In this document: positions 38,570 through 42,939 of the stretch, one piece after another
Layout: every line of letters begins with the position of its first letter
Numbering within the stretch: position 1 is the first letter of the stretch
Position numbers and translations under genes: made by a program
The notes under the pieces: generated by a model
The model's input: only the letters and a program-made list of their open reading frames with translations
Told to the model about the DNA's origin: nothing
The model's database searches: none
NCBI GenBank assembly: GCA_026394015.1
Contig: JAPKZA010000244.1
Location: forward strand, 32,886 to 96,885
Source of the DNA: Acidobacteriota bacterium
Lineage (GTDB): Bacteria; Acidobacteriota; Terriglobia; Bryobacterales; Bryobacteraceae
Length of the DNA stretch: 64,000 bases
Reading direction: 5' to 3'

Positions 38570-41239
38570 ATGCTGAAACCCAAGGCAGAATCGCACGCAG
38601 ACCTCAACCCCGTAGAAACCAGCGAATGGCTGGAAGCGCTGGATCAGATTATCGACGTCGAGGGTCCCGACCGGGCCAAGTATCTCCTCGAGCGTTTGCT
38701 GAACAAAGCCGCCAATAATGGCGCCGCGCCGATCGCGCGCTACCAGACGCCCTACGTCAATACGATTAGCGTGGAGGAAGAGGTTCCCTACCCCGGTGAT
38801 CGCGAGATCGAACGGCGCCTCAAAAGCCTCGTACGCTGGAATGCCTTGGCCATGGTGGTTAAAGCGAACAAGTACGACGCGGGCATCGGCGGTCACATCG
38901 CCACGTTCCAGTCCCAAGCGACGCTGATTGAGGTGGCGCAGAACCATTTCTATCGCGGCCCCATCAATGGCGAACCGGGCGATCTGATCTATTTCCAGGG
39001 TCACGCCTCTCCGGGACAGTACTCTCGAGCATTTTTGGAAGGACGACTGACGGCCCAGCATCTGGCGAACTTCCGCCATGAACTCCGCGATACCCCCGGC
39101 CTGTCTTCCTACCCCCACCCTTGGCTGATGCCAGACTTCTGGCAGTTCCCCACCGTGTCCATGGGCCTCGGCCCCCTCAATGCCATCTACCAGGCGCGCT
39201 TCATGCGCTACCTCGAAAATCGCGGCCTCATCCCGAAAACCGACCGTAAAGTCTATGCCTATCTCGGCGACGGCGAAATGGACGAACCCGAATCGCTCGG
39301 CGCCGTCGGCCTGCCTGCCCGCGAGAAGCTCGACAACCTAATCTTCATCGTCAACTGCAATTTGCAGCGTCTCGACGGCCCCGTCCGCGGCAACAGCAAC
39401 ATCGTTAAGGAACTCGAAGGCATCTTCGCCGGTGCCGGCTGGAACGTGATCAAGCTCCTGTGGGGCGGACCCTGGGACGCCCTGTTCGCGGCCGACAAGT
39501 CCGGCATGCTGATCAAGCGAATCTCGGAAGTCGTCGACGGCGAATTCCAGGCCTACAAGGCCAAGGGCGGAGCTTACATCCGCGAGCACTTCTTCGGCAA
39601 GTATCCGGAAACCGCCGCCATGGTGGAGAACATGACCGACGAGCAGTTGGGCTCGCTCTCACGCGGTGGCCACGATCCGGTGAAAGTCTATAACGCCTAT
39701 CGCCGCGCCAACGAAGGTAACGGCAAGCCCACCGTCATCCTTGCCAAAACCGTCAAAGGCTACGGCATGGGCGAAGGCGGCGAAAGCCGTAACTTTACCC
39801 ACCAAGCCAAAAAGCTCGAAGAGCAGTCGCTGCTCCACTTCCGCGACCGGTTCAAGCTCCCGCTCACCGACGAACAAGCGAAATCCTGCGAGTTGTTCAA
39901 GCCCGCCGACGACGCCCCGGAGATGGTCTACATGCGTGAGCGCCGCGCCGCCCTCGGCGGCAGCGTCCCCGCCCGTCGCCCCAAACCCATCACCCTTTCC
40001 GCTCCCGCTCTTGAACTGTTTCAGGAATCGCTCACCGGCTCCGGAACCCGCGCGGTCTCCACCACGATGGCCTTCGTCCGCATCCTCACCGCGCTGATTA
40101 AGGATCCGGCGCTCGGCAAGTTCATCGTTCCGATCGTGCCCGACGAAGCGCGAACCTTCGGCATGGAGTCGCTCTTCCGTCAGGTGGGTATTTACGCCCC
40201 CATGGGTCAGCTTTACACCCCGCACGATTCCGACATCTTCCTGTTCTACAAGGAAATGGTCAATGGTCAGGTTCTCGAGGAGGGCATCTCCGAGGCGGGC
40301 TCCATGGGTTCGTTCACCGCCGCCGGCACCGCTTACGCCAACTACGGCGTGCCGATGATCCCGTTCTTCACCTACTACTCGATGTTCGGCTTCCAGCGCG
40401 TCGCCGACTTCATCTGGGCCTTCGCCGACAGCCGGGGCAAAGGCTTCCTGATGGGCGCCACCGCCGGACGCACGACGCTCTCCGGAGAAGGGCTCCAGCA
40501 TCAGGACGGCCACAGCCAGGTGCTCGCCTCCACCGTACCCACCTGCCACAGCTACGACCCCGCCTTTGCTTACGAGATCGCCATTATCGTCCAGGACGGC
40601 ATCAAGCGGATGTACGAGTTGAACGAGGATCGGTTCTACTACATCACCATCGGCAACGACGATTACGCGCATCCCCCTCTCCCGGTCGACGACATCGCCG
40701 AAGGCGTCCTGAAGGGTATCTACCGGATCCGAACCGTGGAAGCGCCCAACGCTCTGCTCTTCGGCAGCGGCGCGATTCTCAACGAGGTGCTCGAAGCCCA
40801 CCAGATTCTGTTGGATCGTTACGGTGTCTCCACCGACGTCTATAGCGTCACCAGCTACAACGAGCTCCGTCGTGATCTGCTCGAAACCGAACGCTGGAAC
40901 CGGCTCCATCCCGCGGAACTGCCCCGTGTCGGTTATCTCCAAACCGTCCTCTGCGGAACGGATCTGCCGATCATCGCCGCGTCGGACTACATGAAGATCG
41001 TCCCCGACCAGGTCTCCCCGTGGCTACCTGGTCGTTTGGTGAGCCTCGGCACGGACGGCTTCGGCCGCTCTGACAACCGCGAGCAGCTTCGCCGCCACTT
41101 CGAAGTGGATGCGGAGAACATCGTCGCCGCCACGCTCTCCCGCCTCGCGCGGGACGGCAAGTTCGACGCTGCCCGCGCCGCCGCCGCCATTCAGGAACTC
41201 GGTCTCAACCCCGAGCGCCCCGAACCCTCGCGCGCCTAA
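38570..41239 (+). CDS. aceE: Pyruvate dehydrogenase E1 component (homodimeric)
   Basis: ETSEWLEALDQIIDVEGPDRAKYLLERLL; GHASPGQYSRAFLEGRL; YLGDGEMDEPESLGA (ThDP); TAGRTTLSGEGLQHQDGHS. Confidence 0.97.
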   Translation: MLKPKAESHADLNPVETSEWLEALDQIIDVEGPDRAKYLLERLLNKAANNGAAPIARYQTPYVNTISVEEEVPYPGDREIERRLKSLVRWNALAMVVKANKYDAGIGGHIATFQSQATLIEVAQNHFYRGPINGEPGDLIYFQGHASPGQYSRAFLEGRLTAQHLANFRHELRDTPGLSSYPHPWLMPDFWQFPTVSMGLGPLNAIYQARFMRYLENRGLIPKTDRKVYAYLGDGEMDEPESLGAVGLPAREKLDNLIFIVNCNLQRLDGPVRGNSNIVKELEGIFAGAGWNVIKLLWGGPWDALFAADKSGMLIKRISEVVDGEFQAYKAKGGAYIREHFFGKYPETAAMVENMTDEQLGSLSRGGHDPVKVYNAYRRANEGNGKPTVILAKTVKGYGMGEGGESRNFTHQAKKLEEQSLLHFRDRFKLPLTDEQAKSCELFKPADDAPEMVYMRERRAALGGSVPARRPKPITLSAPALELFQESLTGSGTRAVSTTMAFVRILTALIKDPALGKFIVPIVPDEARTFGMESLFRQVGIYAPMGQLYTPHDSDIFLFYKEMVNGQVLEEGISEAGSMGSFTAAGTAYANYGVPMIPFFTYYSMFGFQRVADFIWAFADSRGKGFLMGATAGRTTLSGEGLQHQDGHSQVLASTVPTCHSYDPAFAYEIAIIVQDGIKRMYELNEDRFYYITIGNDDYAHPPLPVDDIAEGVLKGIYRIRTVEAPNALLFGSGAILNEVLEAHQILLDRYGVSTDVYSVTSYNELRRDLLETERWNRLHPAELPRVGYLQTVLCGTDLPIIAASDYMKIVPDQVSPWLPGRLVSLGTDGFGRSDNREQLRRHFEVDAENIVAATLSRLARDGKFDAARAAAAIQELGLNPERPEPSRA

Positions 41240-41616
41240 ATCAACCGAAACGAACCCAGAACGGCCGGAGCCTCACCGCTCCGGCCGTCTTGTTTTTGCG
41301 GTCATCCCCAGTCTTTATTCCCGGCCATTCCATTCGCCTCGCCAACGTCCAACCGCGGCCCGAGATCTCGGCCCCACCCCCGAACGCCTAAATCAACCGA
41401 GACGAACCCACGACGTCCGGAGCCTCCCCGCTCCAGCCGTCTTGTTTTTGCGGCCATCCCCAGTCTTTATTTCCCGGCCATTCCATTCGCCTCGCCAACC
41501 TCCAGCCGCGATCCGGGATCTCGGCCCCACCCCCGAGCGCCTAAATCAAACGAAGCGAACCCAGAACGTCCATAGCTTCCCCGCTCCCTCCGCCTTGCTT
41601 CCGCAGCCGTCCCCAG
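41234..41616. repeat. Degenerate tandem repeat, ~152-153 bp unit, two full copies plus a partial third
   Basis: GCCTAAATCAA(C/A)CGA(A/G)(A/G)CGAACCCA... begins at 41234, 41386 and 41539. Shared blocks: CCCAGTCTTTATT(T)CCCGGCCATTCCATTCGCCTCGCCAAC and GATCTCGGCCCCACCCCCGA. Confidence 0.92.
41261..41297 (+). terminator. Rho-independent terminator after aceE
   Basis: Perfect 11-bp stem ACGGCCGGAGC-CTCACC-GCTCCGGCCGT followed by CTTGTTTTTG. Confidence 0.88.
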
Positions 41617-41972
41617 GCATCAAAGACGTACAAGCCGATTCCGTTCGCCACGCCAAACGCCGCCGCTTCCTTCTGATCCTGCACGAAGTGGACCTCGGTC
41701 TCCCGCAGTCGCCCCAAAGCGCCCAAGAGCCGCGCTGACAAGTGCCCCTGGCCGGCCAGCACCACCACGTGTCCGCGCGTGACCAACCGCTCTCCCATCG
41801 TCGCGGCAAACTTCGCCACCGCCAGTTCGGCATCCTCGTGCGAGGGTTCGACCAGTAGCACCGCCGTCGCACAGCCCGCCGTCCGCTCCAGCCTCGATGC
41901 CGCGGGCCAGTCATCCCGCTCGGAGACCACAACCGCCAAACAAATCGCCACGAGTATCAGTTGCTTGCCCAC
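41541..41972 (-). CDS. Hypothetical secreted/anchored protein, C-terminus encoded by repeat copy 3
   Basis: Hydrophobic start (KQLILVAICLAVVV), TRGHVVVLAGQGHLSARLLGALGRL, IGLYVFDAWGRL; GTG start proposed at 41972. Confidence 0.55.
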   Translation of the reverse strand: MGKQLILVAICLAVVVSERDDWPAASRLERTAGCATAVLLVEPSHEDAELAVAKFAATMGERLVTRGHVVVLAGQGHLSARLLGALGRLRETEVHFVQDQKEAAAFGVANGIGLYVFDAWGRLRKQGGGSGEAMDVLGSLRLI

Positions 41973-42012: not shown

Positions 42013-42939
42013 ATGGTCCACATCGACGAAGCAACCGTACGCCGCCTCCTCCCCATGACGAAGGCAATCGACCTGCTCGCTCACGCCTTTCGCGATCTCG
42101 GCCTCGGCCAGGCCCAATCCCAACCCCGCCGCCGCCTCGCCCTGCCCTCCGGTGCCGTTCTCCATCAAATGACCGGCGCCCACGGCGCCTACTTCGGCAC
42201 CAAAGTCTACTCGACCCATCCCAAGCACGGTGCCTGGTTCGTTTTCCTCCTTTACGACGCCGCCACCGCCGAACCCCTCGCCCTCATGGACGCCAATTGG
42301 CTCGGCCAAATCCGCACCGGTGCCGCCTCCGGCTTGGCCACCAAGTGGCTCGCTCGCCCCGACGCCCAAAGTGTCGCCGTTCTCGGCAGCGGCTTCCAAG
42401 CGGCCAGCCAACTCGAGGCCGTCCTCGCCGTTCGTGCCATCCGCTCCATCAGCGTCTGGAGCCGCAGCCCGGAAAAGCGCGCCGCCTTCGCCCGGAACTA
42501 TCCCAACGCCGCCCCGATGCCCACCGTCGAAGCCGCCCTCGTCGACGCCGACATCATTATCACCGCTACCCAAGCCAAGGACCCGCTCTTCTCCGTCGAC
42601 ATGGTCCGTCCAGGCACCCATATCAACGCCGTTGGCTCCAACTCCGCCACCCGACGCGAGCTATCCACCCAGGTTCTCCAGGCAGCTCACCGCATCGTTG
42701 TGGACTCGCTCGAACAAGCACGAATCGAAGCCGGCGACCTCATCCTCGGCCTGACGCCGCCGGACTGGGACGCCGTCGAACAACTGCAAAATCAGCCGGA
42801 GAGAAAGAACGCAGCCGAAATCACGGTCTTCAAGTCGGTGGGTATCGGCCTCGAAGACGTCGCGGTCGGGGCGTGGGTCTACGAGCAGGCCCTCGAACAA
42901 GGCCTGACCAACCAGCTACCCCTATTCGCCGCCCGTTGA
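42013..42939 (+). CDS. Ornithine cyclodeaminase / mu-crystallin family protein
   Basis: GTKVYSTHPKHGAWF, SVAVLGSGFQAASQLEAVLAVRAIRSISVWSRSPEK, INAVGSNSATRREL. Confidence 0.92.
   Translation: MVHIDEATVRRLLPMTKAIDLLAHAFRDLGLGQAQSQPRRRLALPSGAVLHQMTGAHGAYFGTKVYSTHPKHGAWFVFLLYDAATAEPLALMDANWLGQIRTGAASGLATKWLARPDAQSVAVLGSGFQAASQLEAVLAVRAIRSISVWSRSPEKRAAFARNYPNAAPMPTVEAALVDADIIITATQAKDPLFSVDMVRPGTHINAVGSNSATRRELSTQVLQAAHRIVVDSLEQARIEAGDLILGLTPPDWDAVEQLQNQPERKNAAEITVFKSVGIGLEDVAVGAWVYEQALEQGLTNQLPLFAAR

Follow-up and report, generated by a model that had tools for sequence, protein, structure and literature searches.

Tandem duplication of the gene junction behind aceE in an acidobacterium may have separated a coding end from a predicted terminator

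Downstream of aceE in an acidobacterial genome, we identified a tandem array whose units derive from the junction between aceE and a small convergent gene. The array lies in a 64,000-nucleotide stretch of DNA (hereafter, the window), and its sequence shows a complementary state: the hairpin of a predicted terminator is kept in the copy nearest to aceE, and the reading frame of the convergent gene is kept in the copy at the opposite end. We propose that a dual-use junction was duplicated in tandem, and that coding and termination were then partitioned between the resulting copies. We assign this explanation a probability of roughly two-thirds. The features of the locus are listed in Table 1.

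Table 1. Genes, repeat copies and predicted terminator at the aceE junction (positions in the window)
Feature	Position	Strand	Remarks
aceE, pyruvate dehydrogenase E1 component	38570..41239	+	889 aa; Pfam PDH_E1_M, E 6.7e-90
aceE 3' coding end caught in the duplicated unit	41183..41219	+	degraded copies end at ~41388 and 41541
Repeat copy 1, aceE-proximal	41234..41385		retains the terminator; an in-frame TGA breaks the minus reading frame
Predicted intrinsic aceE terminator in copy 1	41261..41298	+	11-bp stem, 6-nt loop, tail CTTGTTTTTG
Repeat copy 2	41386..41538		hairpin with 9/11 pairs at ~41413-41440, T-run present; frameshift in the minus frame upstream of the tail
Repeat copy 3, 3' end of the minus-strand gene	41539..41667		hairpin site at ~41566-41593 with 5/11 pairs; broken T-run; open frame
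Minus-strand gene	41541..41972	-	143 aa; GTG start; signal-peptide-like N-terminus
Ornithine cyclodeaminase/mu-crystallin family gene	42013..42939	+	Pfam OCD_Mu_crystall, E 4.8e-57

The initial annotation of this region described three units of 152 to 153 bp, with the starts given in Table 1. TRF recovers the same repeat as one array (41224-41616; period 153, 2.6 copies, 86% matches), and pairwise alignments score far above shuffled sequences: 123 for copies 1 and 2 (highest score in 300 shuffles, 19), 52 for copies 1 and 3, and 55 for copies 2 and 3 (shuffle maximum, 18 in both cases). Copies 1 and 2 are the most similar pair, and the proposed similarity of both to the coding part of copy 3 is borne out. 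A continuation of this homology upstream of the gene tail, noticed by eye, was located at about 41638-41667, where only 5 of 1000 and 1 of 1000 shuffles match copies 1 and 2, respectively, equally well. Translation also reproduced the quoted minus-frame readings and confirmed copy 3 as the 3' end of the minus ORF: copy 1 reads WG, stop, PQKQDGRSGEAPAVLGSFRLI, stop; copy 2 reads WGWPQKQDGWSGEAPDVVGSSRLI, stop; and copy 3 reads WGRLRKQGGGSGEAMDVLGSLRLI, stop. Copies 1 and 2 have no start codon, and their minus frame is interrupted by a stop or a frameshift. With a divergence of about 10% or more between its copies, the array cannot be explained as a simple assembly stutter. In the 574-contig draft assembly of the same genome, no second site of the unit was found, and given this single locus we rejected a mobile or dispersed repeat. 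A known RNA family was also rejected: Rfam gave only chance-level matches to ar35 (E 0.5-0.8), far below the cut-off.

The units contain more than the tail of the minus-strand gene. They comprise what is left of the 3' end of aceE, stop codons, the predicted intrinsic terminator for aceE and the tail of the minus ORF, arranged such that a degraded aceE 3' end closes each upstream unit and is followed by the next CTAA, the terminator position and the gene tail. The CTAA recurs at 41236-41239 (the aceE stop), 41388-41391 and 41541-41544 (the minus-gene stop). The genuine aceE end is identical to 41505-41541 at 30 of 37 positions; none of 1000 shuffles is as good for copy 2, and 6 of 1000 are as good for copy 1. 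Because the upstream units carry aceE 3' ends, the duplicated object is the whole convergent junction. The 305-bp spacer (152 + 153 bp) had been interpreted in the initial annotation as two duplicated, decaying tails of the minus-strand gene. Two tandem homologues of that tail are indeed present, but the aceE tail and the terminator are part of the units too. Two short words are common to aceE and the minus-strand gene, CGCCGCCGC (41176/41179 and 41658) and CTCGGTCTC (41198 and 41694), and are plausible seeds of the duplication.

The minus ORF is a genuine protein gene that is confined to the genus. Of the 19 genomes in the genus, 9 carry an orthologue (aceE, 18 of 19). Beyond the genus, no close relative was detected when 257 genomes of the order were searched with a profile, and dN/dS for codons of the gene body is 0.05-0.36 in those pairs for which it was computable. 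In three congeners that lack the gene (L019, L024 and L025), the ornithine cyclodeaminase gene lies directly 3' of aceE, so the minus-strand gene was either inserted between the two or lost in the others. In most congeners without it (L018, L020-L023 and L026), a different co-oriented gene, not ornithine cyclodeaminase, follows aceE; by eye, the site behind aceE is a rearrangement-prone junction. Inspection by eye also found other strong hairpins at the same position behind aceE in L020, L021, L022 and L026, accompanied by a T-run in the last three, with sequence that is not alignable. Judged in this way from congeners without the minus-strand gene, a terminator behind aceE would be either older or re-evolved.

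Wherever both genes are on one contig, the minus-strand gene is convergent to aceE. A comparison of copy number in related genomes, which the initial annotation had suggested as a check, reveals the minus-strand gene without the repeat in six congeners from the Bryobacterales, Acidobacteriota (G001, G008, G009, G015, G016 and G017) and in a sister genome (G012), although all genomes compared are draft assemblies in which repeats may be collapsed. The 305-bp spacer was added later than the arrangement of the minus-strand gene. In G008, G012 and G017, a CTAA is common to both stop codons, and in the other unduplicated relatives the genes either lie no more than a few tens of bases apart or extend slightly into the spacer.

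In these unduplicated relatives, a strong terminator-like hairpin with a T-run begins a few tens of bases past the aceE stop and lies within codons 124-136 of the minus-strand gene. In an alignment of nine rows, which includes the aceE-proximal copies of the window genome (G000) and of G011, double-sided changes affect 5 of 15 stem pairs (10 cells); none of 500 shuffles reaches 10, and the count is also above that of slid controls. The same synonymous codon is kept in 83% of comparisons under the hairpin, as against 43% for the remaining codons of the ORF; the value under the hairpin is matched by none of 50,000 random 13-codon sets, although the between-sequence comparisons are not independent of each other. 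This evidence indicates that an RNA-level constraint acts on the coding tail of the minus-strand gene in unduplicated relatives. Given the orientation of the T-run, we assign the constraint to aceE. The stretch of about 40 nt in these genomes thus appears to be a dual-use sequence, both coding end and predicted terminator.

Within the window, a terminator scan detected a strong terminator-like site only in copy 1 of this region. Its hairpin has 11 of 11 pairs, 9 of them G-C, with a T-run directly after, and its predicted RNA fold has an energy of -28.1 kcal/mol (z -5.2). These characteristics correspond to an intrinsic (Rho-independent) terminator, that is, a G+C-rich stem-loop followed by a T-run, and the hairpin is intact despite the stop in the minus frame. 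The T-run of copy 2 is the same as that of copy 1. At the corresponding site of copy 3 (-4.0 kcal/mol, z +1.0, tail CTTGCTTCCG), there is no G+C-rich stem-loop directly before a T-run. Copy 1 is therefore not simply decaying, as had been supposed. In the 46-nt terminator block, it is nearer to the unduplicated relatives than is the coding copy (9 versus 16 mismatches to the outgroup consensus). A tree of this block gave no resolution. In a simulation, hairpin retention in copy 1 did not reach significance, and this simulation was partly circular because it assumed an ancestor resembling copy 1. We infer that the copy 1 hairpin ends aceE transcription. In an E. coli system, translating ribosomes repress terminators located within a few bases of the stop codon, and full efficiency is reached beyond about 27 nt (PMC4824070). 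The copy 1 hairpin starts 21 nt past the aceE stop, which by analogy should be a workable distance.

The reading frame decays in copies 1 and 2, and the terminator decays in copy 3. From the sequences, the two roles are likely to be split, with the terminator in copy 1 and the coding end in copy 3. The gene copies of the clade no longer show synonymous constraint in the codons under the hairpin (8/20 versus 149/231 elsewhere). When both duplicated genomes are pooled and G017 is used as the outgroup, the stem and T-run have 2 changes in the proximal copies and 12 in the gene copies (p 0.013). For the window alone, the uneven change has p 0.02-0.07, and with G001 as the outgroup no difference was found.

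The second duplicated genome, G011, has extra junction copies with aceE ends inside (0/2000 shuffles), and its aceE and minus-strand gene are on two contigs that both end inside the array. Its aceE-proximal copy is the better terminator (-23.1 kcal/mol, z -3.0), and its gene copy has a broken T-run (-18.0 kcal/mol, z -0.9), so that G011 mildly repeats the asymmetry of the window. In the G011 array (L011, about 4310 to the end; L003, last ~380 bases), unrelated DNA interrupts a repeat copy, with a CTAAA(A)TC site at the point of interruption; this interruption, present at both contig ends, looks like an insertion element. The window genome groups with G012 as its sister, to the exclusion of G011 (support 98/97). 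Therefore, either the duplication was shared and then lost in G012, or two duplications occurred. The G011 unit extends further into the minus-strand gene than does the window unit, and this difference somewhat favours two events or subsequent deletions. The left half of the G012 junction (L027/L039) is like copy 1 of the window and its right half is like copy 3, as recombination between copies would leave.

G012 is also central to an explanation that we regard as unlikely, namely that the terminator in the gene tail decayed independently of the duplication, for example because the termination mode of the clade switched, and that the split in roles is coincidental drift. Such drift could account for the weak tail of the single G012 copy (GTCGCCTTTG), a poor T-run, and for the borderline uneven change in the window alone. 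However, the G012 stem still has 10 of 11 pairs, including a compensatory inner U-A pair, and the proximal copy is the better terminator in both duplicated genomes. Moreover, the present state of G012 may reflect a copy lost by recombination or an array collapsed in assembly, as well as decay without duplication.

We consider it quite improbable that the spacer is merely two functionless, decaying tails of the minus-strand gene and that the copy 1 hairpin is incidental. The broken, startless frames of copies 1 and 2 and their alignment to the gene tail fit this description, but the hairpin and T-run of copy 1 are perfect, six relatives have a conserved hairpin of this kind, with covarying pairs, behind aceE, and the units include the 3' end of aceE itself. 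A mobile or regulatory repeat inserted behind aceE, such as a REP-like element, a small RNA or a protein-binding array, might likewise appear as tandem, hairpin-bearing units in an intergenic spacer. The ends of the flanking genes explain the entire unit, however, and we consider such an insertion very improbable.

According to the partitioning explanation that we prefer, the ancestral aceE and the small convergent gene would have ended at or near one spot, often with a CTAA stop overlap, and the intrinsic terminator of aceE would have resided within the final ~20 codons of its convergent neighbour. A sequence of about 40 nt would thus have stopped aceE transcripts and encoded the C-terminus of the other protein. 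In the window lineage, this junction (aceE tail, stops, terminator and gene tail) would have been duplicated in tandem, and the new copy would then have been copied again; this proposed order accounts for copies 1 and 2 being closest to each other. The aceE-proximal copy would have become the terminator and lost the frame, the gene-proximal copy would have become the coding end and lost the hairpin and T-run, and the middle copy would be a semi-decayed spare. The analysis shows the homology of the copies, the single-copy relatives, the RNA-level constraint on their coding tails and the complementary losses in the window; that duplication was the cause that freed the two roles, and that events took place in this order, is what we infer.

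The minus-strand gene probably encodes a Cys-less, C-terminally truncated thioredoxin-like protein. In one hhalign comparison, its residues 18-127 matched a thioredoxin-like family with an HPRCPC motif (probability 94%, E 9e-8; family alignment A5, comprising L052:2060-2704, L055, L057 and L058), which may be RedB. The minus-strand gene has EPSHED where the family has HPRCPC; the conserved CxC motif and C-terminal GGxT..RGH..PVFGC block of the family are absent, and the protein ends before this block. It would therefore be at most a divergent relative of this family, and no functional member. Searches of Pfam and NCBIfam gave nothing real, and a PDB sequence search gave no match. An AlphaFold2 model based on nine sequences was too poor to use (pLDDT 53.5), and all Foldseek matches to it had E > 0.01 and were disregarded. 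The gene proper ends where the hairpin-encoded tail starts. From the one profile comparison, the last ~16 residues of the protein might have been made from aceE terminator DNA after the original 3' end was lost. It is conceivable, though we would sooner doubt it, that a truncated gene acquired its C-terminus from the terminator, as a new protein tail encoded by the antisense of terminator DNA, and that later tandem duplications of the junction freed the tail from the hairpin. If so, the locus would be a stepwise record of a sequence that gained, and then lost, a second code.

The array provides a natural case in which coding appears to have been decoupled from predicted termination, and involves no new molecular system or machinery. 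In convergent genes, how a sequence comes to act as coding end and terminator at once, and how this dual use is resolved, is rarely seen. With six unduplicated relatives, one repeat-less sister and two duplicated genomes, the escape from dual constraint can be traced for each base pair. The array is also a warning that apparent decaying gene fragments behind a gene may be the working terminator of that gene.

Dual-use coding ends and terminators are already known, and the duplication-resolved case is new; the literature searched, which included few subscription journals, yielded no case in which a tandem duplication resolves this kind of dual use. In duplication-degeneration-complementation (subfunctionalization), duplicates lose two ancestral functions in complementary fashion. 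At the sequence level, the losses observed here are similarly complementary, but they affect about 150 bp and one regulatory and one coding role, instead of whole genes. In a survey of convergent overlaps in E. coli, one gene uses a Rho-independent terminator inside coding sequence in 19 of 58 cases, and the four-base stop overlaps include CTAA (PMC2174442). These terminators are located where the opposing gene encodes its end, as in the unduplicated relatives; the part of the survey considered here describes no duplication or separation of roles. In Bacillus cereus, terminator stems evolve by paired changes, as at this junction, and terminators common to convergent genes are more constrained (PMC5381666). 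There, two terminators share a sequence, whereas here a terminator and a reading frame share one, and duplication would resolve the conflict. In the tail-to-tail arfA-mscL pair of E. coli, complementarity links the 3' UTR of mscL to the 3' coding end of arfA, which carries a stem-loop (PMC10070815). This stem-loop resembles those of the unduplicated relatives in residing in the coding end of a convergent gene, but it regulates both genes and, unlike the junction behind aceE, does not involve duplication.
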